Source: an uncultured Acetatifactor sp. (GTDB lineage: Bacteria; Bacillota; Clostridia; Lachnospirales; Lachnospiraceae). From it: a stretch of DNA of 64,000 nucleotides. This document shows, piece by piece, positions 8,503-48,737 of this stretch (position 1 is the stretch's first letter; each line of letters opens with the position of its first letter). Position numbers and translations under genes: made by a program. The stretch is taken from assembly GCA_947624245.1 (NCBI GenBank), contig CANQJL010000001.1:62001-126000 (forward strand), given 5' to 3'. Below the pieces are notes generated by a model, which saw only the letters and a program-made list of their open reading frames with translations, searched no databases and was not told the DNA's origin.

Positions 8503-10282
8503 TCACTCCACAGCCGCCCCCTGTGAAGCCAGACCATACAGCCATATCCGCCAGTAGCTCGTTTCCGTCTCATAGCAGCCCATCAGGGAAAGGCCAAGTT
8601 CTTCCGCATTTTTTATCTCGCCGCAGGAAAAAATATACTCGCATCCCAGATCCTTTAAGGCCTCCATATTAAATTCCAGTCTTTCATATACAATTTGACT
8701 GTTTTTCCCAAGCATCCAGGCATTTCCTGTGGCCCCGTTAAAAAGATAACACCGATTGCCCCATTCATCAAAATAAAGCCTTGTCTGTTCGTTTTTCTCC
8801 AATTCCCTTGCAATCACTTTCCGAAATCGATGCTTGTACTCCAGCGGATAATTATTGGAGTATCCGTCCACGGTGTAAAATCCGTGCATCAGCGCAGGTG
8901 CCGGACAAATTCCCAGATGAGCCACCCGGTATGTGGTCATATCTTTTCCGATGGCATCTTCAAGCTGCTGCATCAGATCCTCCGCATAATAGCTTTCCCA
9001 GGATATATAACCTGTAATGCCCGAGCCGTTATTATACTGGTTGACATTCATATAGAGATAAGAGTTCACCTTGATCAGCTGCAGCGTCGGAAAGAGCATC
9101 ACAGCCGTCACGCACAGCTTGAATACCGGAGAAAAAATCACGGAAAAAAATTTTCCCTTTCCTCTCATTCCCCACCATACAGAACAGCATACCGCAAATT
9201 CCAGATACCATCCCGCCGGATAGATCCAATAGAACCGCTCCATCTGAAAATAATGCAGAAAACCGTGCAGATTGTTCTTAATGTCCACTACAGGCTGCCA
9301 TCTGCAGATTCCGTAGAACAGAGCCACACAAAACAGGCTTGCTAACCCCCCCCACTGCCAAAATGAACCGTCTCCTGCTCTTTTGATCCAGCTTTCCATA
9401 GAACACGGCGCCCAAAAAGAGCAAAATAACGATCGGCAGTATCAGATAGCGATGCAGAGACGGCGCATGCTGAGCACTTAAGGTAAATACATTCCACACC
9501 GTCTGCCAGAAGGGCATAGCATATGTCACCATTTCTTCCCGATGACTGACGTAACCGCCCTTTCCCAAAAGCAATTCCGAAAACAGGCTATGGTTTTCCG
9601 CAACATACACCCCAAGCAGCAGCAAAAAAGCGATCAGCAGACTGCCGCTTTGCTTTCGACGCAGGAGAGATGCCAGCAGTCCCACAGCAAAAAAGGCCAA
9701 AATTACATATCCGGTATAGACAAGATGACTGCCCATTCCAAAATAAGCAATAAGAACTAGAGAAATCCACGGCGGTTTCCCTTTCCATAATCTTATAAAT
9801 GCGTATATGACCATCGGAATCCCCATCTCCGACAGCGCATAAACAGGATACAGGGGCAGCATACAGAAACAGCTTGAGGAAATCACTGCAAGAATACTGC
9901 TGCCCGTTATCTCTTTCACACAAAAATACATCCCCAGAAACGCCGTTGCAAAACAAACGGCATACTGCAGGATAAATGCCCAAAACGCAGAAAATATAAG
10001 ATATAAAGGGACAAACAGAATCCCTGCAGGCAGAAGACCGCCGGCAGCGATTCCTCCCATCATTTCCGGAAATACCTTTATTCCATCCCCGAGATGCCTG
10101 GCAGTCAGAATCGTATTCATCATGTATTCATCCCACTGGTCATGGTATTCGAACACACTGCCCTCTCCCAGCGCCAGGATTGGAACCATTACTGCCGCCA
10201 AAAGGATAGGAAACAACGCCCACAAAGGAAGTCGATCTATCCGTGCGACAGCATCATTCACTTTCTTAATTACTTTATTCAT
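8503..10282 (-). pseudogene. Large polytopic membrane protein (DUF6044/YfhO-like), split by a +1 shift at a G8 tract
   Basis: Two overlapping frames form one gene. The N-terminal part (10282 down to about 9278, start ATG with AGAAGG 5 bases upstream) has about eight transmembrane helices and the early loop EYHDQWDEYMMN, and runs out shortly after KSRRRFILAVGG. The C-terminal part continues in another frame from LASLFCVALFYG through a further helix and an exterior domain to 8503. Both sides meet at a run of eight G in the coding strand (9346-9353). With seven G the text reads FILAVGGLASLFCVALFYG and one frame of about 590 codons results. Family likeness is to multi-helix GT-C-like or YfhO/DUF6044 proteins of Firmicutes glycan loci; exact activity unknown. 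Either off-phase, a true pseudogene, or a homopolymer sequencing error. Confidence 0.75.
9346..9353 (-). repeat. Homopolymer G8 (C8 on + strand) at a frameshift
   Basis: Eight C on the plus strand, i.e. GTGGGGGGGG in the coding direction. It is the exact point where the frame of the DUF6044-like gene changes; removing one G restores it. Confidence 0.9.
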
Positions 10283-10338
10283 CTGTGCCTTCTCCAAAAC
10301 GCCACAGTACACCGATATGTCCTTTTCATCGCCTTCCC

Positions 10339-11433
10339 CTATATCTGCTCATTCTGCCTGTGTATCAGCGGATCCTCATAAGCGTCCATGAAATCCGCGC
10401 CAAGGCGCACTACCTCGTCGGCGAAGGTAATCCCCTTCATTTCCGTGAACACACCGACCACCTTCCGAAAACGCACTCCCGGAAAGAATCCCAGCATTTC
10501 CATGGGAACCGTGGCATCGAACTGCGGATATTCGGAAAAAAGCTTCCGATAATCCAGTTCATCCCTGGGATGGGGCTTCAGGAAGATTGTACCCTCCGGT
10601 TCGTACATCCTGATGATGTCCCGAAAGATCTTTTCCCGCACCTCCAAGGTACACAGAGGATCCGTCAGAATCAGTATCTTATCCCCCACGCGGCCGCTCT
10701 CCTCAAGCTGCCGTTCCAAGGTCTCCTTATCTCTGACAAAAGCCCGCAGAATCAGATCTTTATCCCGCCCGTCCAACCTGTCCACCAGAGCCTGTCTGGG
10801 ACATTCCACATAATAAGGACACGGGCGCTCTATGGCGGCAATATCATTGACCTCCATATCGATACAGTATTTCCCGTATCCGTTCTGCACAAAAATCAGA
10901 TTCAGCCGCTTGGACAAAAAAGCTTTTAATCGGAAATGCCCGCGGTTGTCATACCTTGCCGCGTCAAAATTCTTCAGGCAGTTCAGACCGTCTTCCAGGG
11001 CATGATAAGGGATTCGATTCTGATTCAGATAATACCCGATGGGATCCGAATCGCAGTATACATACACCTCTCCGTATTCCCGCAGATCTGTCGGCAGAAA
11101 AGGCGCTTCCAGCTCGGCGTAACGCTTCGTAAAGCGCATTCTGTAATACAGATTGCCCAGAAAATTTCCGGTTCCCTTTCTCCACTTGGCAAGCTCCGGG
11201 AAAAAATCTTCCCGCTTCTCATCAAACATATAAACCTTTCGGAACAGTCCCGTGCTCTCCACTCGGTCCGCAAGATTCTCAAAATTTGTAGACATCATAG
11301 ACAACACAAGATCAGCCTTTCCCTGTTCCTCGCGGGGAAGGCTCAATTCCTTCAAAAAAGTCACATATACATGATAATAGGTATGGCACACATAGATCCG
11401 GGGCTTTGCCGGGTCTTTCTTCATTTTCTTCAT
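10339..11433 (-). CDS. GT52-like (sialyltransferase-type) glycosyltransferase
   Basis: About 364 residues from the chosen ATG (AGGA 8 bases upstream; the frame extends to 11517 but the extra 28 residues are Cys-rich and unlikely). Early text RIYVCHTYYHVYVTFLKE resembles the N-terminus of GT52 lipooligosaccharide sialyltransferases, the middle has HALEDGLN, and the C-terminal domain has FLKPHPRDELDY, the His-Pro motif typical of bacterial sialyl- and polysialyltransferase GT-B folds that use CMP-sugars. No membrane segments or signal. In a locus making CMP-pseudaminic acid it is the best candidate for the nonulosonate transferase. Family assignment is from motifs and could be a more distant GT-B group. 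Confidence 0.65.
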   Translation of the reverse strand: MKKMKKDPAKPRIYVCHTYYHVYVTFLKELSLPREEQGKADLVLSMMSTNFENLADRVESTGLFRKVYMFDEKREDFFPELAKWRKGTGNFLGNLYYRMRFTKRYAELEAPFLPTDLREYGEVYVYCDSDPIGYYLNQNRIPYHALEDGLNCLKNFDAARYDNRGHFRLKAFLSKRLNLIFVQNGYGKYCIDMEVNDIAAIERPCPYYVECPRQALVDRLDGRDKDLILRAFVRDKETLERQLEESGRVGDKILILTDPLCTLEVREKIFRDIIRMYEPEGTIFLKPHPRDELDYRKLFSEYPQFDATVPMEMLGFFPGVRFRKVVGVFTEMKGITFADEVVRLGADFMDAYEDPLIHRQNEQI

Positions 11434-11516
11434 AGTCTTGTCCTGACGGAGCATCGTTTTGAGAAATTCTCCGAAGATATTATAACACAAATCACATTTT
11501 TCGCAAAATCCGCACA

Positions 11517-13106: not shown

Positions 13107-13125
13107 AAAACAGCCCCTTCTCAAG

Positions 13126-14052: not shown

Positions 14053-14077
14053 AATTTTAATCCTTCTTTGCATCTTA

Positions 14078-16316: not shown

Positions 16317-16319
16317 GTA

Positions 16320-17261: not shown

Positions 17262-17391
17262 CTTTCCGATTCCTTTCGTTCTTTTATTCTACATTTTATC
17301 ACGCTTACGGAATATCAGCCACTATTCTTGTAAAAAAATTTATGTTATACTGGATTCACTGGATTCAAAATTACAAATCGGGAGTATCCTT

Positions 17392-33257: not shown

Positions 33258-33300
33258 TTACGTCCACTCCTGCTTCTTCCAAGAGTAATCGCCTGCAGCT

Positions 33301-33317
33301 CATAATAAATTATTATG
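33301..33317. promoter_or_regulatory. Palindrome CATAATA-N3-TATTATG
   Basis: CATAATAAATTATTATG: same 7-base arms as the site at 25341-25357, here with centre AAT. It sits in the 181-base gap upstream of the uronate epimerase. Possible shared operator or recombinase site; AT-rich chance match not excluded. Confidence 0.35.
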
Positions 33318-33345
33318 ATATTAACATATATTCACCCTATTCCTT

Positions 33346-34161: not shown

Positions 34162-34268
34162 AACCTTCCTCTTTCATTTTTTATAAACGCCCAATACAAC
34201 TGATTATGCTATCCGAAGTCCATGGCACTATAGCAACAAAACAAATTATCTCCATTGCAAACGGCTTT

Positions 34269-35789: not shown

Positions 35790-35904
35790 CGCATTTTGAC
35801 CTTTCTCTTAAAGTGCAATCTCCCTATATATCATCGTTTATTAACATTGTCAAATTCATAGAATAACACCTTCGTTTCCCTGCAAATAGAATATTTATAT
35901 TGCA

Positions 35905-36600
35905 TTATATCTTAGTTGCTTTTACATGATAACCAAAACACAGTAACTCATCCGATACATTACCCTGCGTATACTTCTTCAAAGCCATTGAAAGCAATTC
36001 GCTTTGAAGCCTGATCATTATACTCTTTTTATTTAAATACTTCTTCATAACAAAAGAAATACGGCTCAATTCCTGTATCATATAGGAAAAATAATTTCCA
36101 TTGCTTTCAAGACAATCTATTTTAAATCCATATTTTTTTAATATAGTTTCATACCAATAACAACTAAATCCGGTGCAAAAATGATACGGCGCCATATGTG
36201 TCAAAGAACAGAAAGGTGCCGTCAGAATCAGTACCCCCCCAGGACGAACAATACGCGCAAATTCTTGTATTGCTAACTCAGGAGACGGGAGATGTTCTAA
36301 AACTTCCGTACATAAAATAGCATCAAACGAGCAATCTTTTACCGGAATGTCGATAATGTCGCTGACAATATCAATTTTACTTGTATCCCAATTTCCCCCA
36401 TTCAATCCTTTAGAATTGCCGGTCCCATCATATTGACAAAAATCTTGTGAGACATACTGCAAATGACTACACGTATCTTTCCAACGAAGCTCTCCTGCGC
36501 CGGCATCTAAAATTGAAGTCCCTGCCGGCAACGCTAAAAGTTGTGCTTTCAGCCATTCACTCCTGTTAATTTCATTTCTGTTTTCTCTTTTTATAGACAT
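35905..36600 (-). CDS. SAM-dependent methyltransferase (class I)
   Basis: 231 residues. Motif I SILDAGAGELRWKD, LCTEVLEHLPSPE (motif around the substrate pocket) and ARIVRPGGVLILTAP are typical of small-molecule methyltransferases of the Methyltransf_11 group. The Gly-Gly of RPGGV is encoded by a G7 tract (36234-36240 as C7), in frame. It probably O-methylates a sugar of the polymer. Non-secreted. Confidence 0.82.
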   Translation of the reverse strand: MSIKRENRNEINRSEWLKAQLLALPAGTSILDAGAGELRWKDTCSHLQYVSQDFCQYDGTGNSKGLNGGNWDTSKIDIVSDIIDIPVKDCSFDAILCTEVLEHLPSPELAIQEFARIVRPGGVLILTAPFCSLTHMAPYHFCTGFSCYWYETILKKYGFKIDCLESNGNYFSYMIQELSRISFVMKKYLNKKSIMIRLQSELLSMALKKYTQGNVSDELLCFGYHVKATKI

Positions 36601-36716
36601 ATGACCATCTCCTCCTTTACGAATATTGTTCCCCCTTCAACATCTCACAAATATCATTATTAGCATAACCAACGGGAAAATGTCTGCAGTTTTCATAATA
36701 TCTACATTGTAAACTA

Positions 36717-37589
36717 TCAATTTCCTATGATTACAAAATCACTTAATATATTTGTCACTATGCGTTTATTAAGGTCATCGCATCTACTCTCATCAAACCA
36801 TTTTTCTGGTGCTATCATAATTTTCCCTTCTCGCTCGGACAGCCATGCCCCCCACCAGCTAAATGTAGAATTTGCTATAATAAAATATTTGCAATTTCGC
36901 ATCATCTCCAGATCTATCAATTCATTTTCGCTCAAATTTGAGTCCACAAATATCGTATTTTCAACATCCTTAAACTCACTTCGGCACCACTCGATGTCAT
37001 CTGAGAAAAAATATATATGCGAAATATCCACATTGTTTTTTAGGTACGAAATCGCTTTCTCGTAATATTTTTTCTCTACTACATTATACAGACTATTTTG
37101 AGGTTTCAAATAGTCTCCTCTTCTCACATGTACAGCTAAGGAGTCTTCATTCCGAATATTCTTAATAATACATTTCTGCCTTTCTCCCACTTTCCCTTTG
37201 TATCTATATTCATTTAGTAAACAAATACGACATTCTTGAAAATATTGCAGATTTATCCAATCGCCAACCACATATGCTTCTGGAATATCTATATTCTGAT
37301 ATCCAAATGGAACGTGTTCGACAACAGTACGTGTTTTTTTATCCCACCACTTACGCCGACTGTCATCAGTCTGCAAAAGTTTTCTTCCACCCCAATATAT
37401 GAATCCTCTTAACCAACTTTTCTTTTTATAACTTATATTATATTTATCAATTTCAAGTTTTCTCCGTTTATCCCTTCCTATGTAAAACGTATCCAGACAC
37501 AAATTTTCTTTATGCTTTCTAACATAAGACAACCCAAATGCATATTGAAACATTTGATTGCCAATTCCGCCGGTCATACAGATAATCAT
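36717..37589 (-). CDS. GT11 alpha-1,2-fucosyltransferase-like
   Basis: About 290 residues from the ATG at 37589 (AGAGG 8 bases upstream). GGIGNQMFQYAFG at residues 7-19 is the GT11 start, and LAVHVRRGDYLKP is the HxRRGDY motif for GDP-fucose binding; NSTFSWWGAWL near the C-terminus is also standard. No GDP-fucose genes (gmd/fcl) are in the window, so the donor must be made elsewhere, or the donor is another GDP-deoxysugar. Confidence 0.9.
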   Translation of the reverse strand: MIICMTGGIGNQMFQYAFGLSYVRKHKENLCLDTFYIGRDKRRKLEIDKYNISYKKKSWLRGFIYWGGRKLLQTDDSRRKWWDKKTRTVVEHVPFGYQNIDIPEAYVVGDWINLQYFQECRICLLNEYRYKGKVGERQKCIIKNIRNEDSLAVHVRRGDYLKPQNSLYNVVEKKYYEKAISYLKNNVDISHIYFFSDDIEWCRSEFKDVENTIFVDSNLSENELIDLEMMRNCKYFIIANSTFSWWGAWLSEREGKIMIAPEKWFDESRCDDLNKRIVTNILSDFVIIGN

Positions 37590-37708
37590 AGCTAATTCCT
37601 CTCGCACATCGTTTCAGATAATGTTCTACATTCAGCACATTATATATCTTGACATCTATACCATTCCACAAAACCAATTCAAGCTGTTTTGTGCATTATC
37701 CTGCTTGT

Positions 37709-38740
37709 CTAATGCAGGTATATAAGCCACTTATGTTTCCCTTCAAAAAACAATACTGCCGTAGCCAGTACCATGGATATTCCTATGACCGCCATAAAAC
37801 ACCACAAACTGCTTTCTTCATATTTCACTAATATTCCGTCAATCACCCACGGATGAATCAAAAGAATCAGTAAAGAAAGCTTACGCGCCATTATACCAAA
37901 TTTCTCTCCAAATGACCACGTTTTTCCAAGATAATTTAAAATCGCTACTAGTGACACACTGCTCATCATCACGCCAAACCCGATGTCTAAACTTCCCGTC
38001 CCCCAAATCTTATCTATAACAGTCGGTTCCAGAATAAGCATCAGAAGTCCCACTGACAGCATGGTCATGTATTGGGATATTTGAAAAGAATCCTGACGAC
38101 GATACAGTAAATATCCGAAAACAATGCAGGGAAGTCCCTCAAACAAACCATTCCTTGTATGCCCAAAGAGCAATACCATGCCATCAATCAACTTTCCAAT
38201 AACTGGCAGGCCTGAAACGGCAGGCTGCCACATATTTCCCATTACGCCTAACGTATAAGCAAAAATACTCACACACAATAACTGTCTGTCGGATAAGTGC
38301 AGCTTCCGATATAAAAGTACAAACAAAAGCACGGCGGCAATCAGCGCTGGAAAAAACCACAGCACCCCCCATAAATTTCCCATGAAAAATTGTCGAAAGA
38401 ACAGTATTGTCTTTAGCAGGACATTTCTATCATCCTCCAACCATGCCGGCATATATAAAGGAGCATAAATGACACACCATATCAGATATACCCTTATCAA
38501 TCTGGTAAGATAACTTTTAATCAGGTCTCCTTTCCATTCCTTTTCACTTAAAAAAAGTCCGGAAGTGATAAAGAAAAACGGAACGCCCAATCTCCAGATA
38601 CCCCCCCTGAGCACCAACGGAGTCATACCTTTTATTGGAGAGCAATGAATCATCACAATAAACAGCGTTGCAAACATTTTCCCCAAGTCTATTGCAACAT
38701 TTTCCTTCCTTCTCGTTGTCTGTTCTTCCCTTGTCGCCAT
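37709..38740 (-). CDS. Acyltransferase family 3 (OafA/WecH-like)
   Basis: 343 residues with about ten hydrophobic helices. AIDLGKMFATLFIVMIHCSP at the N-terminus carries the family His; RLGVPFFFITSGLFLS is the second conserved block. These integral proteins O-acetylate sugars from acetyl-CoA. A G7 tract (C7 at 38601-38607) encodes the Gly-Gly of LRGGIWR, just before the RLGVPFF block, in frame; a shift here would delete nearly the whole enzyme. A second acyltransferase of the family lies at 41.6-42.6 kb. Confidence 0.88.
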   Translation of the reverse strand: MATREEQTTRRKENVAIDLGKMFATLFIVMIHCSPIKGMTPLVLRGGIWRLGVPFFFITSGLFLSEKEWKGDLIKSYLTRLIRVYLIWCVIYAPLYMPAWLEDDRNVLLKTILFFRQFFMGNLWGVLWFFPALIAAVLLFVLLYRKLHLSDRQLLCVSIFAYTLGVMGNMWQPAVSGLPVIGKLIDGMVLLFGHTRNGLFEGLPCIVFGYLLYRRQDSFQISQYMTMLSVGLLMLILEPTVIDKIWGTGSLDIGFGVMMSSVSLVAILNYLGKTWSFGEKFGIMARKLSLLILLIHPWVIDGILVKYEESSLWCFMAVIGISMVLATAVLFFEGKHKWLIYLH

Positions 38741-38782
38741 GTGACCGCTCCTTTTACGCCGTAATAATAAAAGTGCAAGCCC

Positions 38783-39929
38783 TCACAAAAAGTCCGGCAT
38801 GACCGAAACAGACTTTAATGTCATATATCCCACTGCCGTCAACATCTGCATTGCAAAAGCCAAATATCCAAAACACGCCGTCGGATAGCTGATACGAAGA
38901 AATCTTTCGTTTTTATCCAGAATCTGATCAATCATACGCAAAATAGCTATGATAAAGAAAATCATAGAACCAAGCACAGCTCTGGGAGGATATGTGGGTG
39001 ATAATATCATTGCGCCCACAGATACGATCCCTGCAGCTATAAACAAGCAAGCCGGCTTGTCCGGCAGTTCATGGTACACATACCGTAAGGCAAGGAGCAG
39101 AACCCCCCCCTATCAAGAGCGTCGGAAACAGGTAGCTGAAGATTGCCCGCTCCATATAGTACCCTCGCAGCATCAGGGTCTTGAGCAGTCCCGCATCCGG
39201 ATTAATCATCCCTGCTCTAACTCTGCTGCCCGGCGCTGCCAACATGAATATTGTCCCCGTCAATAGGCCTAGTCCTCCTGTAATAGTCCACTTGGGAAGA
39301 TATCTCTTACTTTTCACTACATCTATTATGATAAAAAAGACCATAAGCACAAACGTCGGCCCAATATTCTCGACGGTCCAGCCCGCCAAAACACCCAGTA
39401 ACAATAATCCGATCGAGGCCGCCACAGATGTATGCGTGTATGTCTTATTTTCCAACAGTCCAAGATATGGCAGGAAAAAGAGCAGGCATATCGTAATTGT
39501 CCACACATAAGTAACACTTCCTGTTATCCAATTACATGTCCCGTCAAAATCGGGATTCAAAAAATAAATCAGAGCAGTCGACATCAATAATGTAAATGCA
39601 TTCCGATTCTTACTATAGCAACAACATATTAAATTTAGTGCCGCAACGACTATCGCATTTAAAAGACTGGAATATGGTTTTTTCCACCACATCAATATTC
39701 TGCCAATCGTATGGGCGACCGTACGGCCGCCCCAAGAGAAATACTGATGTAGCTGTGTATAAAAAATATCGCTGAAACTTTGTGTCGGCTGTCCCGTCTT
39801 CCAAGATTTCATTAGCCCAAAGTCGTCGCTTCTAAATGCCGTCACTTGGTTCAATGCAAACATCAGAGCACATGTAACAATGCTGATAAGAATCATCGAC
39901 ACAATATTTATTTTTTTTGTTTTAGCCAT
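38783..39929 (-). pseudogene. DUF6056-like membrane protein, split by a +1 shift at a G8 tract
   Basis: The N-terminal frame (start ATG at 39929 with GGAGG upstream) has SDDFGLMKSWK, HQYFSWGGRTVAH and NWITGSVTYVW, which I recall as DUF6056 marks, and about seven helices up to FPTLLIGGGS, where it goes out of frame. The C-terminal frame begins around YHELPDKPACLFIAAG and adds three to four helices to 38783. They meet at C8 on the plus strand (39103-39110). With G7 the text is LIGGVLLLALRYVYHELPDK, a plausible helix, giving about 382 residues. Its start overlaps the AsnB-like gene end by 8 bases. Off-phase, pseudogene or sequence error. Confidence 0.75.
39103..39110 (-). repeat. Homopolymer G8 (C8 on + strand) at a frameshift
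   Basis: ATAGGGGGGGGTT in the coding direction; removing one G joins the two halves of the DUF6056-like gene. Confidence 0.9.
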
Positions 39930-41568
39930 TCTTTTTCCCTCCACATGTTTTCATGTTCTTAATACACTCTGCCAATCCTATAACAGCATACTTCACAGAT
40001 GTGTTCCCCCCTCTTCTTTCCTTTTTGCTCAATCTCACTGCATCACTTTTTTCCAGATATCCACCGTCAGCCAGCATTGCAAGCGCCTCTTGATACCTGC
40101 TCCACAAAGCAGAATTTAAAACAATCGTCTGATTCTCGGTCTGATAGGGATTTATCACTTGCAAACGATCCCCTGAAACACAGGCTAGCAGCACATTGAC
40201 GAGGTTAAGAAAACGCATTATATAATAACCGGTTCGATAATAAATCTTGTCTGCCAACCCATATCTTTTTTCTGTGGATTCTCCTCTTCCAAAATACCGC
40301 CGGGATGATATATCTTTCATACTGAAAAAATAATTATCCAGAATATATTGTTCCACCCGTTTCTCTGCTCTGTATTTTATTGGTATCGATAACATTAATT
40401 CCAACAATTCATAATCTGCATAGGGTAGTTCCACCGGCATCCGCTCCCGACACAGTGCCGATAATCTAACATGAAATTTAGGATTACGTTCTATTACATA
40501 AATAAACTCGTCCATGCAGGAAAAATTACCTTTGTCGCCCGGATATCGTTCTGCCAGTACGGCCAGATCCTTTTCTATTTCCCGTTTCATCTCCCATGGA
40601 ATCCGAAGTTCCGTATTTTGCAGAGTACTATAATAAGCACTCTCCTCCATAGATTCTTTTGCCTTTTCTGCTCTAGCGTCCCAGCCCATAACAGCATCGC
40701 TGTAATAATTAGAAAGAGCTATCGCTTTATCCTCGCTGTCATATTCAGACAAGCAACGATACATGTGCATATGATTCAGTGCAATCCCGCCCCCTGTCTT
40801 GATCGGCACGGATAGGTTATTCATATAATCTTTCGCCTTCAACGGAACAAAATGCGGTTGTGCAAAACCCAGCCTTTTTGCCACAGCACAAGCAATCCGG
40901 TACTCCTTTATGTGCCGGCTGTAGCCAAATGTATATAGCATTACATCTTTTTGCCCAGTGCCGGCCAACATACAAGCTGACAACCGGCTATCCACCCCTC
41001 CGCTAAGGCCCATAACAATCTTGTCCCCTTTATATTTTGAAAAGATTGCCTGTAGTTTCAAATAAACTTGCTCTGCCGCAACTGCCTCTTCTTCCATATC
41101 TGCCCTTTGCAAGATAGTGTAATTCCAATATGGCAGGATTCTTCCGCCATTCTCATTCAGGACACACCTTGAGGCAGCCGGAAACTGTTGTATATTATTA
41201 AAAATTGTTCTGATCCCGATACCGCTTCCATACAAAAGTGTTTCATAAATACCAACTCTGTCTATTCCTTCTGCATAATCGTAACAGAGTCTGAAATCTG
41301 TCGTTAATAAATATTTTTTCCCCTTATTTGCCATATATAGTGGCACCGACGCAAAAGGATCATTATATACCTCTATATAATCAGGGCCAGTATAAACTAA
41401 AATTCCCTTATGCTTTTTCGCAAAATCCGACAAGCTGTCTTTTCTCAGCCCTAAGACATTTACTTCTTCATACGCAAAAAACAGGATTTTTCCATCTTCA
41501 CTCTGATTACAAACCATATCTTTAGAATTTATTTCTACTATACATTGCTTTTCAATTAAAATCTGCAT
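39922..41568 (-). CDS. Asparagine-synthetase-like protein lacking the N-terminal Cys
   Basis: 548 residues. The C-terminal ATP-pyrophosphatase domain has the PP-loop VMGLSGGVDSRLSACML (S189-R195), DEFIYVIERNP and RMPVELPYADYELLELMLS, as in AsnB. The N-terminal half resembles the glutaminase domain (FNNIQQFPAASRCVL, YWNY) but starts MQILIEKQC, without the Cys2 nucleophile, so glutamine cannot be used and ammonia or another amine would be the donor. Such degenerate AsnB proteins are frequent in capsule loci; they may amidate a uronic acid. The locus makes UDP-GalA or UDP-GlcA, which would fit. A G6 run encodes RRGGN at the C-terminus. Confidence 0.8.
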   Translation of the reverse strand: MQILIEKQCIVEINSKDMVCNQSEDGKILFFAYEEVNVLGLRKDSLSDFAKKHKGILVYTGPDYIEVYNDPFASVPLYMANKGKKYLLTTDFRLCYDYAEGIDRVGIYETLLYGSGIGIRTIFNNIQQFPAASRCVLNENGGRILPYWNYTILQRADMEEEAVAAEQVYLKLQAIFSKYKGDKIVMGLSGGVDSRLSACMLAGTGQKDVMLYTFGYSRHIKEYRIACAVAKRLGFAQPHFVPLKAKDYMNNLSVPIKTGGGIALNHMHMYRCLSEYDSEDKAIALSNYYSDAVMGWDARAEKAKESMEESAYYSTLQNTELRIPWEMKREIEKDLAVLAERYPGDKGNFSCMDEFIYVIERNPKFHVRLSALCRERMPVELPYADYELLELMLSIPIKYRAEKRVEQYILDNYFFSMKDISSRRYFGRGESTEKRYGLADKIYYRTGYYIMRFLNLVNVLLACVSGDRLQVINPYQTENQTIVLNSALWSRYQEALAMLADGGYLEKSDAVRLSKKERRGGNTSVKYAVIGLAECIKNMKTCGGKKNG

Positions 41569-41580
41569 ACCTATCCCCTT

Positions 41581-42570
41581 TTAATAGTCCGTTCTCCTAT
41601 GTCTGTATCCAAAACATCCACTTATTTTTTTGCATATCCTATCTAACAGAAAAACCCCCGCCGCCGAAACCGCCACTGCAGCCAGCGGATATAATATAAC
41701 GCCATATAACAGGTATCTGCTTCTTGAACAGACATTGGATACTATCCCCGCAATCGGCATATGAGTTAAATAGATGATATAACTATTTTTCCCCAACCAG
41801 CACAATATACTGCTTATTCTTTCATTTTGCCGAATAATCCTGCAGATTTCTATACAGAGTATTCCGCTTCCTGCAATAAACATGAGAAACAACGGAGATC
41901 CATAGGCGACTTTATTCTTATTTATCAGCAGTGCAAAGAAGATACAGATTAGGGCAATGCCCCCCCTAAACCATATGTACTTTTTTCTTAATAGTCTTTC
42001 TAAGAACCCATAAGCTCTCTCGTTTTGAAGGCACAATCCAAAAGCAAAAAACGGCATATGGCACAGTACATTATTAACCACTCCAATATCATTAATAAAC
42101 GTCCTTATTCCAAAATCATAAGTTATAATATGATATAGTAGACTCAATACGAACAGTGTTATCTGAATTCTCACATTTCTCGCATAATAAAATATCAGCC
42201 ACAAAATAACTATTGTATGCATAAACCAAAGATATGTTCCTATGCCTGCCAGCCATTTAAGCAAATTGGCGTATCCTAAACCTTTGCGTAATACCTCATA
42301 CCCCCAGACCGCTGTCCCCCAAAACAACCATTGTATCATAAGTTTTCGTTTTTTTCGCCAAAATTGTCTCGCAGAAATATTATTATGAAAAAGATAACCG
42401 GAAAGAAGCAAAAATATGGGGACGCCCACCGTTCCGATATTATTGCGTACATTATCCAAGAATGCATCAACCGCACTATACGAAACCCTATTGGGGCAGT
42501 GGGCATATATAACACTGATAATGGCCAGGCCCTTTAGGCACCAAATCGGCTCCCTGTACTTTTCGTTCAT
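41581..42570 (-). CDS. Acyltransferase family 3
   Basis: 329 residues, about ten hydrophobic helices. CLKGLAIISVIYAHCPN (catalytic His) and GTVGVPIFLLLSGYLF are the two family blocks, and NSYIIYLTHMPIAG lies near the C-terminus. Likely O-acetylates the exported repeat unit. A G7 tract (C7 at 41960-41966) encodes FRGGIAL within a helix, in frame. Twelve bases separate it from the next gene. Confidence 0.87.
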   Translation of the reverse strand: MNEKYREPIWCLKGLAIISVIYAHCPNRVSYSAVDAFLDNVRNNIGTVGVPIFLLLSGYLFHNNISARQFWRKKRKLMIQWLFWGTAVWGYEVLRKGLGYANLLKWLAGIGTYLWFMHTIVILWLIFYYARNVRIQITLFVLSLLYHIITYDFGIRTFINDIGVVNNVLCHMPFFAFGLCLQNERAYGFLERLLRKKYIWFRGGIALICIFFALLINKNKVAYGSPLFLMFIAGSGILCIEICRIIRQNERISSILCWLGKNSYIIYLTHMPIAGIVSNVCSRSRYLLYGVILYPLAAVAVSAAGVFLLDRICKKISGCFGYRHRRTDY

Positions 42571-42582
42571 TCTGCTTCTCCG

Positions 42583-43746
42583 CTAAAACAACCGCTTCAT
42601 TGTCTGAACAATTTCTGCGGCACTCTTTTCTATTTCAAAATTGTTCTCCGCTATTTCTCTCGAACATGCCTCTGCCTGCTTGTACCAATCTGCGTCTGCC
42701 TCCAGTAAAGCTGTAATTTTTTCCTGAAAGTCCTGTACATTATGATAGGAGAATACATAGCCGTTCTTTCCTTGTTCTACTACTTCAGGATAATTTCCCA
42801 CATGCTCCGATACAAAAAACGGTTTTCCACACCAAAGTGCTTCAATACAGGAAAGTGGATTCGGATCAGACAGTGATGGGAGAAAAAATACATCTGCACA
42901 ATACAGCAATTCTACGATTGCGCTTTTATCCTGATATCCCAACAATTTTAAATCCACATGGTATTTCTGCGCATACTCGCGCAACTCTGTTTCAAGTTCA
43001 CCATTTCCTGCAACAGCCAATTGGATTTTCTCATAACCCTTTACCGTTTTCAGCATCTCCATAAATGGCATTAAACCTTTTACGTGTGTCAGACGTGCCG
43101 CGGAGAAAAAAAGGCACTTTCCTTTTGATAATCCATATTTCTCTCGCACTTCATCCACCGTCAGGCAAATATCCTTCTGCAGCTGACAAAACGATTTGTT
43201 ATCAATCAAATTCGGAACATGGATATATTCCGCTTCCGGGCTGCCATATTTTAAGATCAATTCTTTTGCCTTTTCGCCGGGATACCAATATCCTCCCCCC
43301 CTGAACTTCCCATAAAATATCCGTCTCACTCTATCACGAATCCAATAGATAAAAGGATTGTAGTCTCTTGTTTCGTTCAAGTGAGATTCTGACCAAAAGA
43401 AAAGTTTGCAGTGTTTGTGTCTTGCCCAAAACAGAGCCTGCCATACGGGTAGTAATGGATATCCCCCTGATAGAACTAGTATATCCGGTTTCAATTCATC
43501 GAGACACAGTCTTAAGTCTGAATTGATATACAGGCGATCCGCCTTGCCAAACAGAACTTTTCTTTTTAATAATTTTGCATAATCCTGTTGAAAATCGCTG
43601 TACTTCCACGACCTGTAACTAACGTCTGCCTGCATCACCAGAAGTTTAAAATCAATTTTTTCTTTCTTGGCCTGTACGGCCAGCTCCGTAAAAAAAGGAT
43701 GGCGGTAAGGAGTCAATGTATCTGTCAGCAGTACTATTGATTTCAT
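42583..43746 (-). CDS. Family 4 glycosyltransferase
   Basis: 387 residues, GT-B fold. LSGGYPLLPVWQAL in the N-terminal domain; the C-terminal domain has FFSAARLTHVKGLMPFME, VAGNGELETEL and FLPSLSDPNPLSCIEALWCGKP, the E-x7-E-like motif of GT4. A G7 tract (C7 at 43295-43301) encodes FRGGGYWYPG, in frame and before the catalytic domain. Donor unknown. Cytoplasmic face of the membrane. Confidence 0.9.
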   Translation of the reverse strand: MKSIVLLTDTLTPYRHPFFTELAVQAKKEKIDFKLLVMQADVSYRSWKYSDFQQDYAKLLKRKVLFGKADRLYINSDLRLCLDELKPDILVLSGGYPLLPVWQALFWARHKHCKLFFWSESHLNETRDYNPFIYWIRDRVRRIFYGKFRGGGYWYPGEKAKELILKYGSPEAEYIHVPNLIDNKSFCQLQKDICLTVDEVREKYGLSKGKCLFFSAARLTHVKGLMPFMEMLKTVKGYEKIQLAVAGNGELETELREYAQKYHVDLKLLGYQDKSAIVELLYCADVFFLPSLSDPNPLSCIEALWCGKPFFVSEHVGNYPEVVEQGKNGYVFSYHNVQDFQEKITALLEADADWYKQAEACSREIAENNFEIEKSAAEIVQTMKRLF

Positions 43747-43758
43747 TTTCTACTTTCC

Positions 43759-44814
43759 TCATTGTTCAGAACGCATCTTCTCAAAAATATCCAGGACAAA
43801 TTTTGCACGATCTGTCACTTCATGTTTATCTTTTAACAGCCTTCGGTATCCCGCCTCCGCAATTTTTTCCCTTTCATCCGCATGTTCCAGATAATAACAA
43901 ATTTTATTCACAAATTCTTCTTTATTTGAGTAAAAAACCGCCTCTTCATCTGCATTATACATGGCTGCTATATCCTCCGTATATGGTGCTATCATCATCG
44001 TTTTAGCTGCAGGGATTTCAAAGCAGCGTCTTGTATAAGTATCATGATTGACTTTGGATAGAAATACAATAGCAATTTCAGCTGCGTTTAACATTTCATT
44101 ATACAATGCCTGTGTATTCTCCAATTTTACCAAATATGGATTATTCTCTTCAAATCTCTCCCAAGAAGTCTTTATAATGCCGACTTCTATTTTTCTTTCC
44201 AAAAGCGCTTTAATGTATTCTCCTCTCTCATCATTTTCATAATGCCCCAAAAAGACCACTTTGGGCACTTGAATCGCCGGTCTTTCTATATAATAGTTCC
44301 TTTCTTCAATATAATAGGATTTCAGTTGATACACACTTTTACAGCCGGCATTTTCAAAGTCGCTGATATTCTGCCGACGGTAAACAAATCCGGCAGATGC
44401 CACAGAGAGCCCTCTTCTAAAATGTCTCCAATAATAATGCGGGTAATACTCTCCGAATGGATTGTCATTGCTGTAAAGAAAGATATCACTTCCAAGTCCT
44501 TTTATCTTTTCAAGCGTATGCCTGTAAACATGTCTTGTATTATAAAGAAATACCAAATCCGGCTTGAAATCTTCCGCTATCTTCAACATTTGCCTGTTCA
44601 GCTTTTGTACGCGCGGTCCGAATGCTGTTTTATACTGGGCACGAGACAAAAGATTTAAAAAATAATTGCTCTTTTCAGAGTTAAAATCAAAATAATTGTT
44701 TGTTTGAAAGTAGTAAATATCCTGACAGCCTAATTTTCTCCATGCGTCATAAAATGCATGTGAATACATCCTATATGTACTATCACCAACTAACAGGATT
44801 CTGATAGCTTTCAT
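43759..44814 (-). CDS. CgeB-like glycosyltransferase
   Basis: 351 residues. ILLVGDSTYRMYSHAFYDAW at the N-terminus, FLYNTRHVYRHTLEKI, LYSNDNPFGEYY and, in the C-terminal domain, RRCFEIPAAKTMMIAPYTED with FVNKICYYLEHADERE are the layout of CgeB/spore-maturation type GT-B transferases (Glyco_trans_1_2). Likely the first gene of a transcript, because a good promoter lies upstream. Donor and acceptor unknown. Confidence 0.8.
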   Translation of the reverse strand: MKAIRILLVGDSTYRMYSHAFYDAWRKLGCQDIYYFQTNNYFDFNSEKSNYFLNLLSRAQYKTAFGPRVQKLNRQMLKIAEDFKPDLVFLYNTRHVYRHTLEKIKGLGSDIFLYSNDNPFGEYYPHYYWRHFRRGLSVASAGFVYRRQNISDFENAGCKSVYQLKSYYIEERNYYIERPAIQVPKVVFLGHYENDERGEYIKALLERKIEVGIIKTSWERFEENNPYLVKLENTQALYNEMLNAAEIAIVFLSKVNHDTYTRRCFEIPAAKTMMIAPYTEDIAAMYNADEEAVFYSNKEEFVNKICYYLEHADEREKIAEAGYRRLLKDKHEVTDRAKFVLDIFEKMRSEQ

Positions 44815-44911
44815 AACGGATATCCTTTCAATTTTACGTTTTTACCATATAAAATCAGACAAGTCAAAGGCAATTAATCATGAATCAATTTCGACAGTAG
44901 CATACGGTTTG

Positions 44912-44940
44912 ATTGTAACATACAAGCCATTGTCATTCAA
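44912..44940 (-). promoter_or_regulatory. Putative sigma-A promoter reading into the AT-rich block
   Basis: Minus strand: TTGAAT (44935-44940), 17-base spacer, TACAAT (44912-44917), in the 206-base gap between the phosphonopyruvate decarboxylase and CgeB-like genes. A TTGACT element further downstream is a second candidate. Confidence 0.55.
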
Positions 44941-45020
44941 CGGTTTTCATCCGGAAATCCCCCTGGCATCCCATTCGGATTTACCTGCTTAAGGTTGCTG
45001 TTCATACACTAAATCATGCT

Positions 45021-46139
45021 TCAAGTTTCTAGCATTTCCCTAAAAGCCTTCTTATTTTCCAACGCAGTAGTCGTCGGTCTCCCCAGATTTTCTCTGGCCC
45101 CGATCCCACACTTAACTTCAATAAAGCTGAGCTGCCCTCTTTCTTTTGCGAATAACAATTCCCTGTCCAAATCAGGCAGCTTATCTACACTGACCGCATA
45201 CGGATATCCACAGCCCTTTGCTATCTGTACCAGATCTGTTTTTGCCGCCACTGTCGGCATACCCCCCACCGTTTCATGGGCCTCGTTGTTGATTACGATG
45301 TGAACCATATTTCCCGGGCTGTTCGCCCCGATCACAGCCATCGCCCCCATATGCATCAGGGCGGCTCCATCTCCATCTACGCACCAGACTTTTTTCTCCG
45401 GCTTTTGGAGTGCAATTCCCAAGGCTATGCTGCTGCAGTGTCCCATGGAGCCCACTGTCAGGAAATCATATCGATGGCTTTCCCCCCTATCCTCCCTGAT
45501 TTCAAACAGCTCTCTGGACGCTTTGCCTGTGGTACAGACAACGGGATCCTCACCTGTTACCGCCACAATGTGTCGGATAATTTCTTCTCGGAGCAGCTTA
45601 TGTCCATTCCCATACTCGACGTTCTTATCATAAGTCAAAGCTCCTTTTCGAATCAGAAAAGCTACATCTCTGCCGTTGTCCAGCTCAGATCGAAATTCCG
45701 TCATGGCCGCCGCCACCGCCTCATCCGCTGTATCTTTTCCGATGACAAAGAACGGGATATCCATTACTCCCAAGAGTTTTTCCGTCACTTCACCCTGGAA
45801 GACATGCTGGGGTTCATCATGAACTCCGGGCTCGCCCCTCCATCCCACAATAAACACGGTCGGAATAGCATAGACCTTTTCGTTCAGAAGAGACGCCGCC
45901 GGATTGATAATGTTTCCTTCTCCGGAATTTTGAAGATACACAACGGGTACCCTTCCTGTAGCCAAATGATAGCCCGCTGCCAGCGCAGCACAGTTTCCCT
46001 CATTGGCCGCGATCACATGATGGTGAGGATCTGTGCCGTATGTATGCATCAGATAATTACACAGTGCTTTTAGCTGGGAATCCGGAACCCCCGTATAAAA
46101 ATCAGAACCTATGATTTCAATCAGTTTCTCTGCTCGCAT
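45021..46139 (-). CDS. aepY: Phosphonopyruvate decarboxylase
   Basis: 372-residue thiamine-diphosphate enzyme, full length for the family. NEGNCAALAAGYHLATG contains the catalytic Glu; GWRGEPGVHDEPQH, VGSMGHCSSIALGIALQ and CVDGDGAALMHMGAMAVIG (GDG...N thiamine motif, with NNEAHETVGG) are typical of Ppd/AepY. Decarboxylates phosphonopyruvate to phosphonoacetaldehyde, pulling the unfavourable PEP mutase step. Overlaps the 3' end of the cytidylyltransferase gene by 19 bases. Confidence 0.93.
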   Translation of the reverse strand: MRAEKLIEIIGSDFYTGVPDSQLKALCNYLMHTYGTDPHHHVIAANEGNCAALAAGYHLATGRVPVVYLQNSGEGNIINPAASLLNEKVYAIPTVFIVGWRGEPGVHDEPQHVFQGEVTEKLLGVMDIPFFVIGKDTADEAVAAAMTEFRSELDNGRDVAFLIRKGALTYDKNVEYGNGHKLLREEIIRHIVAVTGEDPVVCTTGKASRELFEIREDRGESHRYDFLTVGSMGHCSSIALGIALQKPEKKVWCVDGDGAALMHMGAMAVIGANSPGNMVHIVINNEAHETVGGMPTVAAKTDLVQIAKGCGYPYAVSVDKLPDLDRELLFAKERGQLSFIEVKCGIGARENLGRPTTTALENKKAFREMLET

Positions 46140-46879
46140 ATAGTTGCTCTCACCTTGCTTTCATCATTTTTGCACAGCCATTCTTCATAGCTCGCATCCA
46201 ACGCCACAAGCTCTTCAACAGTATCAATTTCTATCAAGGCATCCTTGCTCACTTTATTGATTCGCACCTCAATTTGATCTAAAATCTGATCCATTACTTC
46301 ATCCCAAAACAAATTTTCCGTTCCGGGACAGTTATAGAGAGATTGGATTTTTTCCTTTAAAACTTTTGAATCTCTTTGAGTCAAAAAAGCAATACCTGTC
46401 ATATTATATAAATCTGTCCCGCCCTTTTGGATATGGACAATACGGTTCCCTCTCGTCTCAAAAATCCAATCGCTAGAATATCCCTTCACCATCTTTGCAT
46501 AATAGCAGGAATGTGACAGCGAAGCCCTAAAAATATCAGGATTTTTCACCAAAATGTCTGATTCGCAGATAAAACAATCTGCATCACCCAAATATTCACA
46601 GACAGCATAAATAGAGGAAATATTATTTTTTACCTGATAGTCTTTATTCTCAACCAATGTCACCTGACTGTATTTCCCCTGCAAATATCCAAACATATCT
46701 TTTTTATAGCCGACGACCACATAGATTCTTCTGACACCACGTTGCAACAATCCCTCTATCATTGTTTCTATCAAAACTTTTCCGTTGACCGTCACTAATG
46801 GCTTTGGAATTTTCTCTGTAAGAGGGCGCATCCTGCTCCCCAGTCCGGCCGCCATTAACACCGCTATTTCCTGTCTCAT
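46121..46879 (-). CDS. LicC/PntC-like cytidylyltransferase, probably for 2-aminoethylphosphonate
   Basis: 252 residues of the nucleotidyltransferase fold: VLMAAGLGSRMRPLTEKIPK at the N-terminus, YQVKNNISSIYAV, CFICESDILVKNPD and SSDWIFETRG resemble LicC choline-phosphate cytidylyltransferases and PntC, which makes CMP-2-aminoethylphosphonate. Placed between the transaminase and decarboxylase genes of AEP synthesis, with a LicD transferase nearby, CMP-AEP is the most economical product. Choline phosphate is the main alternative, but no choline kinase is present. Start ATG has GAGG upstream. Confidence 0.82.
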   Translation of the reverse strand: MRQEIAVLMAAGLGSRMRPLTEKIPKPLVTVNGKVLIETMIEGLLQRGVRRIYVVVGYKKDMFGYLQGKYSQVTLVENKDYQVKNNISSIYAVCEYLGDADCFICESDILVKNPDIFRASLSHSCYYAKMVKGYSSDWIFETRGNRIVHIQKGGTDLYNMTGIAFLTQRDSKVLKEKIQSLYNCPGTENLFWDEVMDQILDQIEVRINKVSKDALIEIDTVEELVALDASYEEWLCKNDESKVRATICEQRN

Positions 46880-46925
46880 AATCCTCTCATTCTGTCGCTT
46901 TCACGGCTTCTAAAATCAAAATCTT

Positions 46926-48053
46926 CTATCGATATTCCACAGGGATCTTTATCTTGAACTGCCGCATTGCCTGTTCCAGGACTTTAAAAAAGCATTCAAT
47001 GTCCTCTTGATCAATTGCTCCCAGGGCGCATAGGCGAAAAGAGTTGCTTCCTGCTATTTTCCCCGGATAAATTGTGAATCCCCGCTCATAACAGTAATCA
47101 TGTACCTTTTCAAAGCTCCAGTTTTCATCATCTGGATAGCGAACTGCAACAACAAGTCCCGATTGCAATTTGCGGTCTATCAGACATTGAAAGCCCAATT
47201 CCTTCAGTCCTTTATGAATTGCTTCAAAAACCCGTGTATGCCTTTTCCACTTTTCAGCTTCCCCTTCCTGCCAGTACTCTTTTAGAGCCTGTCTTACCGA
47301 ATAGATTGTCTGAACCGGCGGGGTAAAGTGCATCTCCCCTGCTTTTTGAAAATAATCATACTGCAGGAATAGATTACAGTAATAAGACCTTTTCGGAAAG
47401 GAAGCGGACTGTTCGATCAACTCTTTTTTTCCTATGACAAAAGAAAGACCTGTCATAGCCATGATACCCTTTTGGGCGGATGCCATGCAAAAATCTATCT
47501 GATCTTTCTCCATGTCGATGGGAATCATCGCATAAGACGAAGTGGTATCCACCACAAACACTGCTCCAAATTGATGTACCAGCTTCCCGATGTCGCGAAT
47601 AGGATTGAGAAGCCCTGTGCCTGTTTCGTTGTGTGTCGTATACACTAGCGCAATTTCCGGATGTTCATGCATAGTTTTTTCAATTAATGCCAAATCAGGA
47701 ACTTGATTATATGCAAAAGTCAAATTGATATACTCAAGCCCATAATATTCACATATTTCCACAGCCCGCTGGCTGTATGCCCCATTATTGATTACCAGAA
47801 CTTTCTTTCCTGCAGGCAGCAGAGAGTTCAGGCACACATCCATATTGATAGTCCCTGAACCGCAGAAAAGCACAGCCGTATAGATGTCAAGGTCTCCGTG
47901 TACGATCCGCACCAAATCATTCCGGATGTCGTCCATAATTTCCCTGAACTCTGCCTCTCTGGGACAGATATCCGGAACCACTTGAGCCATTTTTACACTA
48001 TCTGTTGTGGTTGCCGGGCCAGGATTTAATAAAACGTTTCTTTTTATTTGCAT
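46926..48053 (-). CDS. phnW: 2-aminoethylphosphonate--pyruvate transaminase
   Basis: About 375 residues. VLLNPGPATTTDSVK at the N-terminus, FCGSGTINMDVCLNSLLP, TTHNETGTGLLNP, VDTTSSYAMIPIDM and the pyridoxal-phosphate Lys in ASAQKGIMAMTGLSF are typical of PhnW/AepZ. Here it runs towards 2-aminoethylphosphonate from phosphonoacetaldehyde. I took the ATG at 48053; a GTG 9 bases earlier follows AAAGG. Upstream is the methyltransferase with a G8 tract. Confidence 0.92.
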   Translation of the reverse strand: MQIKRNVLLNPGPATTTDSVKMAQVVPDICPREAEFREIMDDIRNDLVRIVHGDLDIYTAVLFCGSGTINMDVCLNSLLPAGKKVLVINNGAYSQRAVEICEYYGLEYINLTFAYNQVPDLALIEKTMHEHPEIALVYTTHNETGTGLLNPIRDIGKLVHQFGAVFVVDTTSSYAMIPIDMEKDQIDFCMASAQKGIMAMTGLSFVIGKKELIEQSASFPKRSYYCNLFLQYDYFQKAGEMHFTPPVQTIYSVRQALKEYWQEGEAEKWKRHTRVFEAIHKGLKELGFQCLIDRKLQSGLVVAVRYPDDENWSFEKVHDYCYERGFTIYPGKIAGSNSFRLCALGAIDQEDIECFFKVLEQAMRQFKIKIPVEYR

Positions 48054-48071
48054 CTGCGTCACGCCTTTTCT

Positions 48072-48716
48072 CTAATTTTTTGTCATGTAGCACTGAAACA
48101 CAAAATCACTATTCCAATAATTTCTCATATTCTCTGTAGAAAAGCGGATATTCATATCATGTTTTTCAGCAAATTTTAGAAAAAATTCTTTGTCATAAAA
48201 AAACTTAGGCAATTCCTTATACCTCTCTTCGTAGTTGGCATCAACCTGTTTTCGATATTCCAAGAAATCCGCTTTTTTACGAATATCATGAATATCAACA
48301 ATACCAATGGAATAATTTGCCTTGCGATACATTTTCTCTAACACAGTTTCTGCATACTCATAGCTGTCAAAATAGGAAAAAACACTATTTGACAAAACTG
48401 CATCATAGACAATGGTATCCGACAGATGAATCGCCTCGTCACAAATCAGCTCCATCGGATTCTCTAATACAGTTTTCGCAATATCAATAAGCGAATGCGA
48501 ATAGTCTATTCCACCTACCTGCATACCATCCTGCTGATATAAGTATAAATTAGGGCCCGATCCACATCCAACTTCAAATATGCTTTTTATCTCGCGTCTG
48601 CCAGTTCTGGCGCAAAAGCTTAATTCATTATTAATTTGAACATACTGTTCATAAAACTGTTCATATGTAAGCATTTCTCCTGTAGAATCCCAGCCATCCA
48701 GCCGTTTTAATTCCAA
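48072..48716 (-). CDS. SAM methyltransferase, 5' end disturbed by a G8 tract
   Basis: 214 residues in the frame that starts at TTG 48716: KSIFEVGCGSGPNLYLYQQDG (motif I, quoted in part), YDAVLSNSVFSYFDS and YSIGIVDIHDI. Just upstream is G8 (48730-48737 as C8). If it were G7, the frame WEKRSPETELNSIRGG (upstream, from TTG 48789) would run directly into KELFLELKRLDGWDS; WEKR followed by L-x-LDGW/FDS is what I recall for this methyltransferase family, so the true gene is probably about 239 residues and is out of frame here. Between PEP mutase and PhnW genes, it may methylate AEP or a sugar. Confidence 0.65.
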   Translation of the reverse strand: MELKRLDGWDSTGEMLTYEQFYEQYVQINNELSFCARTGRREIKSIFEVGCGSGPNLYLYQQDGMQVGGIDYSHSLIDIAKTVLENPMELICDEAIHLSDTIVYDAVLSNSVFSYFDSYEYAETVLEKMYRKANYSIGIVDIHDIRKKADFLEYRKQVDANYEERYKELPKFFYDKEFFLKFAEKHDMNIRFSTENMRNYWNSDFVFQCYMTKN

Positions 48717-48729
48717 AAAGAGTTCTTTA

Positions 48730-48737
48730 CCCCCCCC
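48730..48737 (-). repeat. Homopolymer G8 (C8 on + strand) in the methyltransferase 5' region
   Basis: ATTCGGGGGGGGTAAAG in the coding direction. With G8 the upstream frame meets TAA at once; with G7 it enters the methyltransferase frame. Confidence 0.88.

Follow-up and report, generated by a model that had tools for sequence, protein, structure and literature searches.

Do the G7 and G8 tracts on the minus strand of a surface-sugar locus in an uncultured Acetatifactor species (Lachnospiraceae) act as phase-variable contingency sequences? The DNA analysed, referred to here as the window, is a stretch of 64,000 nucleotides, in which a sequence-only reading had listed eight such tracts, seven of them in an AT-rich block at 33.3-48.8 kb. 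All eight positions and lengths proved exact, as did the count for the block. The tracts are homopolymers, in which a change in length would alter a reading frame or, in promoters, a spacing. The tracts and the gene pieces that matter to the argument are the following, with window positions:

8503..9399, minus strand: downstream piece of the split DUF6044 gene (profile positions 311-562, other frame)
9278..10312, minus strand: upstream piece of the split DUF6044 gene (Pfam profile positions 11-306)
9346..9353, minus strand: G8 tract at a frame break, DUF6044 membrane-protein gene
33300..48800, minus strand: low-GC glycan and phosphonate cluster with seven G7/G8 and six G6 tracts
33735..33741, minus strand: in-frame G7 with TA directly after it, DUF268/methyltransferase-like gene (33346-34161)
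36234..36240, minus strand: in-frame G7 with TA directly after it, methyltransferase gene (35905-36600), where the tract codes for part of a PGG motif
38601..38607, minus strand: in-frame G7 with TA directly after it, Acyl_transf_3 gene (37709-38740)
38786..39100, minus strand: downstream piece of the split DUF6056 gene (profile positions 293-366, other frame)
39069..39944, minus strand: upstream piece of the split DUF6056 gene (profile positions 2-272)
39103..39110, minus strand: G8 tract at a frame break, DUF6056 gene
41960..41966, minus strand: G7, in frame in an Acyl_transf_3 gene (41581-42570)
43295..43301, minus strand: G7, in frame in a group-1 glycosyltransferase gene (42583-43746)
48730..48737, minus strand: G8 followed by TA, directly before or at the start of a methyltransferase ORF (48072-48716)

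An ORF overlap was also seen at an A7 run at 57466.

Each of the five G7 tracts lies within one open frame, as had been claimed, and several of the window tracts encode Gly-Gly. The companion claim, that all three G8 tracts sit at frame breaks, holds for 9346 and 39103, and at 48730 a break is at best putative. There, the sole start with a good upstream ribosome site (judged by eye) meets a stop before the tract, and in the other frame TTG is the one start available. Among the loci compared, the methyltransferase had no homologue. A poly-G promoter was considered for this tract and rejected, since no -35 box was visible upstream by eye.

At 9346 and 39103, one gene is certainly split between two frames at each G8, the two pieces covering successive parts of the DUF6044 (profile length 564) and DUF6056 (profile length 442) profiles, respectively. 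Matches to the upstream DUF6044 piece were found in 97 of 138 genus genomes, the host genome counted; among the best homologues, 28 of 29 are open over 583-645 aa and one measures 441 aa, while weaker matches in G137 and G053 contain one internal stop and several further matches are fragments. Many congeners likewise have unbroken homologues of the DUF6056 gene. That both genes stay open beyond the tract and are unbroken in congeners would fit consensus errors, in which the run length was miscalled and the genes are really intact, as would the draft state of the host assembly (53 contigs) and the poly-G artefacts at contig ends in other assemblies (L076, L075), one of which bears what we take to be Illumina adapter sequence. 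A rough ORF rule, with gene boundaries counted, moreover called breaks at 8 of 38 coding A7/T7 runs of the host genome (part of them checked), compared to 4 of 22 coding G7 runs, and by this rule G-runs of length seven are thus not special. Against consensus errors, breaks at G-runs recur across several independent relatives, and the coding A8/T8 runs in the sampled host sequence were all in frame by the same rule, though in a small sample (4/4). Miscalled runs appear to us a rather improbable account of the two breaks.

The regularity seen in the window, with all G7 in frame and all G8 out of frame, breaks down in the genome as a whole. The host genome carries 55 G7/G8 tracts, seven of them G8, and no G9 or longer; an in-frame G8 occurs on L017, while two G7s, at L006:2503 and L026:7466, are probably at frame breaks. 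Many of the G7 tracts lie in unrelated genes.

Comparison of tract lengths with relatives, which the sequence-only reading had proposed, gave a divided answer: congeners do reach G9-G14, but the alignable DUF6044 and DUF6056 homologues carry no tract at the matching sites. Runs of just 2-6 G occupy the DUF6044 site in the 29 homologues, and runs of 2-4 G the DUF6056 site in the alignable loci (9/29), so that 9346 and 39103 are not conserved contingency loci. A DNA search of the 138 genus genomes with the 38.5-49 kb segment matched 40 of them, the host included, mostly in the phosphonate genes, plus an 85% piece in G068 and some short fragments, so that the genes of the block that bear tracts seem to be accessory.

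The 33.3-48.8 kb cluster is enriched in tracts of G7 or longer beyond codon usage. Codon shuffling of its 14 genes gave 1.54 expected runs of at least seven G compared to six observed (P 0.0015), and 4.55 expected runs of at least six G compared to 12 observed (0/2000 shuffles), while the 36 flank genes held two runs of at least seven G with 2.20 expected. The earlier estimate of fewer than one expected run in the block stands with independent bases (0.63, compared to seven observed) but not with Markov models, which predict 1.1-2.3 runs at orders 1-3 and 4.9 at order 4. Genome-wide, seven of the 55 tracts fall within 15.5 of 2531 kb (P 5e-8), in a block chosen post hoc. A plus strand rich in C, together with Gly-Gly codons, could produce runs by chance, and the whole window does hold eight runs of seven or more, near the independent-base expectation of 6.2, several of them encoding Gly-Gly as noted above. 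The excess in the block nevertheless survives codon shuffling, even if the block was picked after the data were seen, and runs of at least seven G followed by TA number three there, compared to 0.17 expected (P 0.001). Chance is a very unlikely explanation.

The two breaks might also be ordinary fixed frameshifts, that is recent pseudogenes, at the sites most prone to slippage and without reversible switching. Such a reading fits tracts of merely G7/G8, the tract-free aligned homologues at both break sites, and the presence of the MutL family PF01119 in all 15 genus genomes tested, the host included, which also leaves loss of mismatch repair, as far as MutL is concerned, unsupported as a driver of the tracts. 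It is less easily reconciled with a glycan-cluster excess that goes beyond codon usage and is absent from the flank, in parallel with a class of poly-G promoters; together these suggest that the tracts are kept rather than avoided. Fixed frameshifts are, in our judgement, about as improbable as miscalled runs.

The promoters in question form a discrete class of 12 tracts in the host genome, mostly of the form TTGACA-N9-G7-TAAAAT, none of which lies within the window. Nine of the 12 precede exported or membrane proteins, a G7 directly precedes the -10 box in 9 of 78 TTGACN..TAWAAT sites, and further members have variant -10 boxes (two on L016, one on L020). The repeat thus lies between recognisable -35 and -10 boxes. 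Since 11 of the 12 tracts adjoining the -10 box share an identical G7, the class looks fixed rather than variable in this genome, and the perfect-consensus sites (TTGACA to TAWAAT, with the run directly before the -10 box) all have exactly G7 and a spacer of 16 (8/8), as would be expected of a regulator binding site or a sigma-factor preference without any switch. Other genomes, however, vary the run length on constant flanks and reach spacers off the optimum. The pattern TTGACAN{7,14}G6TAWAAT was found at 31 sites in 18 of 299 family genomes, the host included, compared to none in the reversed control, and the 23 sites outside the host, which include three copies of one repeated promoter, have spacers of 14-20, a range seen in other genera of the family, with 12 outside 16-18 compared to 5 of 45 ordinary promoters of the host genome (P 0.0007). 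In G043, an identical flank occurs with G6 and with G7 in one genome; with a scan pattern that confines spacers to 15-19, same-flank runs within a genome were G8/G9 in E13__bin66, Caccopulliclostridium and E03__bin100, G7/G8 in Coassembly_mag_441, and G8-G11 on near-identical flanks in DeMMO3_36. Length thus differs between paralogous promoters and between species, with one genome per species, and a fixed site without a switch is unlikely. The first genes behind poly-G promoters are biased towards exported proteins (47/75 compared to 130/416 for others, P 4e-7, repeated families counted separately). Six loci of relatives that share a conserved G8/G9 element gave no Rfam match at the gathering threshold, and a copper-sensor operator was dropped as an identity for the run, the left half-site of the motif being missing.

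Among the tracts of G9 or longer read in relatives (67), 14 are in frame, 10 are at breaks and 43 are unclassified; at least two of the 24 classified are promoters. Many of the congeners' long tracts lie in genes for glycan modification. On L144, such a tract splits an Acyl_transf_3 gene into profile segments 2-155 and 152-323, and 12 of 30 tract-bearing ORFs, hand-chosen for scanning, belong to glycan-enzyme or glycan-locus families. A concentration on surface functions is common to the block genes, the exported-protein bias and the glycan ORFs of relatives. TA directly follows about half of the runs of seven or more G in the host genome, compared to about 5% of short runs; in one further locus set, it follows 0 of 13 non-promoter G7 runs and 5 of 8 runs of G8 or longer. 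If such a boundary depends on run length but not on codon phase, slippage drift alone would hardly account for it, and some process that recognises sequence would be making or keeping the tracts. Tentatively, gut Clostridia including Lachnospiraceae might share a general design for poly-G phase variation, with a threshold-length G-run closed by TA that varies the promoter spacer of exported proteins and switches the frame of glycan genes, although we consider this doubtful as a whole.

The surface-sugar cluster and the longer runs of relatives suggest on/off switching by run length, and we give a probability of roughly 0.55 to the reading that the G7 and G8 tracts of the window belong to a Lachnospiraceae-wide poly-G population acting as slippage-prone contingency sequences. 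The original interpretation as phase variation gains from the enrichment of the block, the two split genes, the poly-G promoter class, and the G9-G14 tracts and breaks of relatives, but is weakened by a maximum of G8 in the host, the presence of MutL and the lack of conserved sites. Slippage would shift the frame in genes or the spacing in promoters, the split genes at 9346 and 39103 would be OFF alleles, and lengths would change within a clone, reversibly and with altered expression. Frequent slippage typically needs G8 or more. The host genome would be in a short-tract state, its switching probably rare given such short tracts.

Poly-G/C loci of Campylobacter typically lie in surface-glycan genes, with frame breaks, in a mismatch-repair-deficient background, a background not found here given MutL in 15/15 genus genomes. 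Neisseria porA and opc have phase-variable promoters with a repeat between -35 and -10. Work on Campylobacter (PMC8355987) describes G/C homopolymers within and between genes, as found here; the present tracts differ in being G7-G8 (G9-G14 in relatives), in a MutL-bearing Lachnospiraceae host, in many being promoter elements, and in that their switching is putative. Another parallel is the pilus of Bifidobacterium breve (PMC9187656), a Gram-positive gut commensal in which slippage of an intragenic G-tract between two frames switches a surface structure and was measured by maximum-depth sequencing; that host is an Actinobacterium and the genes are pilin genes, whereas the present case comes from genome data. 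The same source cites the phase-variable promoter of Haemophilus influenzae fimbriae, with a repeat between -35 and -10. Repeat length sets that spacing in the Haemophilus and Neisseria promoters as it does here, but here TTGACA-N9-Gn-TAAAAT recurs on many genes of one genome, and also in other Clostridia, with a putative effect on expression. In the open-access literature, searched by title and abstract opening, none of the matches listed reports phase-variable poly-G tracts from either Lachnospiraceae or Clostridia.

The promoter class offers a simple searchable signature, by which the proposal can be put to the test wherever long reads of a Lachnospiraceae genome exist. Should the tracts switch, this family, dominant among gut commensals, would possess a means of bet-hedging most familiar from pathogens of mucosal surfaces. 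It would act on capsule decoration and lipoproteins and would help account for strain-level heterogeneity among gut isolates.

The eight poly-G tracts that the sequence-only reading had described in the window were recovered with the same positions and lengths, seven of them within the low-GC glycan/phosphonate block (33300..48800, minus strand):

33735, minus strand: G7 within one single open frame
36234, minus strand: G7 within one single open frame
38601, minus strand: G7 within one single open frame
41960, minus strand: G7 within one single open frame
43295, minus strand: G7 within one single open frame
9346, minus strand: G8 parting two ORFs with DUF6044 11-306 and 311-562
39103, minus strand: G8 parting two pieces with DUF6056 2-272 and 293-366
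48730, minus strand: G8 located 13 bases 5' of the TTG start of a methyltransferase ORF (48072-48716)

That reading had placed all G7 in frame and all three G8 at frame breaks. The breaks at 9346 and 39103 stood, as the Pfam pieces lie in different frames, but at 48730 the sole upstream start with a clear ribosome site reaches a stop ahead of the tract, and a single frame break is therefore not demonstrated. Partly within the glycan cluster lies a phosphonate decoration set (45021-51014; PEP mutase, a TPP enzyme like phosphonopyruvate decarboxylase, a class V aminotransferase, a nucleotidyltransferase and LicD), parts of which are found at ~70% identity in up to 39 congeners. At 57465-57556, an A7 run coincides with 92 bases common to two same-strand ORFs, of which the downstream is Polysacc_synt_2 and the upstream had no Pfam match, making this a candidate frame break.

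The two G8 breaks at 9346 and 39103 may be errors or fixed mutations. The upstream DUF6044 piece had matches in 97/138 genus genomes and DUF6056 in 51/138 (own included in both). Among the best 29 DUF6044 homologues, 28 were open over 583-645 aa and one over 441, compared with 356 for the own piece, while two weaker matches had an internal stop; DUF6056 homologues were open over 369-464 aa, compared with 293. At the break junctions the G-runs measured 2-6 in the 29 DUF6044 homologues and 2-4 in the nine of 29 DUF6056 loci that aligned usably. Since these runs are so short, the tracts at both breaks look recent and species-specific when judged by sequence comparison.

The whole genome (2.53 Mb, 53 contigs) holds 48 G7 and 7 G8 tracts and none longer, with 8/55 in the window, and the sequence round the remaining 47 was also read. 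Two further coding G8 lie at frame breaks, one (L026:6270) between a DUF6056-like piece and a piece without a match, the other (L023:2533) between a lipoprotein-like start and an ABC_sub_bind domain. The proposed rule of G7 in frame and G8 out holds for the clear cases in the window but fails genome-wide, since the G8 at L017:2486 is in frame and the G7 at L006:2503 and L026:7466 are probably breaks in membrane proteins, judging from overlapping ORFs without Pfam match. A rough ORF rule served as a control on 252.6 kb of own sequence: coding A8/T8 were in frame in 4/4 cases, and 8/38 A7/T7 and 4/22 G7 were flagged as breaks, gene boundaries being among these flags, which were checked in part.

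The seven G7+ runs of the block exceed expectations that range from 0.63 with independent bases up to 2.3 with a Markov model of order 3; an order 4 model, trained on those very runs, expects 4.9. Codon shuffling of 14 block genes with proteins fixed gave an expectation of 1.54 for G>=7 (6 observed, P = 0.0015) and 4.55 for G>=6 (12 observed), the block limits having been picked by the earlier reader from the same data; 36 flank genes showed no excess of G>=7 (2 vs 2.20).

A second class of tracts sits in promoters, none of them in the window. The own genome contains 78 TTGACN{13,18}TAWAAT sites (14 for the reversed control), nine of which carry a G7 abutting the -10 box, every one with a 16-base spacer, and one a G7 within the spacer. 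Three added sites (two at L016, one at L020) have variant -10 boxes, one with a G8. The 45 ordinary TTGACA promoters, including the one with G7 inside the spacer, have spacers of 17 (25), 18 (10), 16 (5), 20 (3) and 13 (2). Nine of the 12 poly-G promoters precede exported or membrane proteins as judged by eye (exceptions L014, L027 and L034), among them lipoproteins, a class B sortase-like protein (two promoters) and three zinc-ribbon membrane proteins. One such promoter occurs near contig ends in three copies (L021, L035 and L036) with the same flank and G7, ahead of a zinc-ribbon membrane protein family with variable repeats, running past the contig ends.

The strict pattern TTGACAN{7,14}G6TAWAAT, which admits spacers of 13-20, gave 31 sites in 18 of 299 family genomes and none in reverse. 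The 23 sites outside the own genome had spacers of 14 (2), 15 (2), 16 (3), 17 (1), 18 (7, three being one repeated promoter), 19 (5) and 20 (3). A looser pattern gave 15 sites vs 3 for the reverse in 16 congeners, and a scan of named genomes at least 113 loci in many phyla, numerous Clostridia among them. Several genomes contain repeated promoters with constant or nearly constant flanks and unequal G counts. Hydrophobic start segments were found in 47/75 first genes after poly-G promoters vs 130/416 other ORFs of the same loci (P = 4e-7); two other thresholds gave 50 vs 145 and 38 vs 110.

Long runs also tend to end in TA. In own sequence this follows 5.8, 5.5, 4.6 and 3.8% of G2-G5, 20% of G6 (n=25), 52% of G7 (n=46) and 43% of G8 (n=7); in relatives, 5-7% of G2-G5, 1.5% of G6, 11% of G7 (n=18), 28% of G8 (n=29) and 57% of G9+ (n=67). 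Among the matches listed from the named-genome scan, promoter-like runs excluded, it followed 26/443 G5, 5/66 G6, 0/13 G7 and 5/8 G8+. In-frame coding tracts show it in 8/23 own and 11/15 relatives' cases (L027, L147 and L162 look promoter-like); as every one of the three codon phases is represented, a protein effect is unlikely. Examples in promoters and coding sequence include window 33735, 36234 and 38601, and loci L002, L019, L022, L030, L074 and L082.

Relatives carry longer tracts. The sequence GGGGGGGG is present, very unevenly spread, in 95/101 genus genomes (own included), and G10+ in 18/20 congeners picked for high count or quality; in G048 and G062 every G10+ site was a contig-end artefact. 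Of the 67 distinct G9+ tracts read, a subset of those present and counted after dropping 12 artefact or duplicate loci, the ORF rule placed 14 in frame and 10 at breaks and gave an unclear call for 43, the classified ones including two promoters (L154, L156) and two promoter-like loci (L147, L162). At L144, Acyl_transf_3 is clearly split at the tract. Of 30 tract ORFs chosen for length, 12 belong to glycan-enzyme or glycan-locus families and seven had no match; glycan-related families at relatives' tracts are acyltransferases, GT2, pyruvyl transferase, TupA and FrhB (the last a family with a glycan role). One of the 30 ORFs is a DNA methylase (N6_N4_Mtase) in G095; the G12 close to where its frame ends (L073:1501), a break by the ORF rule whose downstream piece had no Pfam match, marks a candidate phase-variable methyltransferase. 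Six congeners share a conserved intergenic element without Rfam match (L041, L050, L053, L055, L063, L064), in which two AT-rich blocks flank a G8 or, in one case, a G9, and one 3.8-kb contig (L148, G100:C109) has three G9-G10 tracts ~450 bases apart, crossed by short frames only.

No report of poly-G phase variation in Lachnospiraceae was found in titles and abstract starts of the open-access papers listed. There are two precedents: homopolymers have been put forward as a general device, with Clostridia among the groups sampled (PMC2831843), and slippage of an intragenic G-tract has been measured in Bifidobacterium breve, a gut Gram-positive (PMC9187656). Slipped-strand change of the G-tracts is the most economical reading, whereby altered tract length would shift the frame in genes or change promoter spacing. 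The short tracts of this genome, together with its mutL gene, argue for rare switching here.
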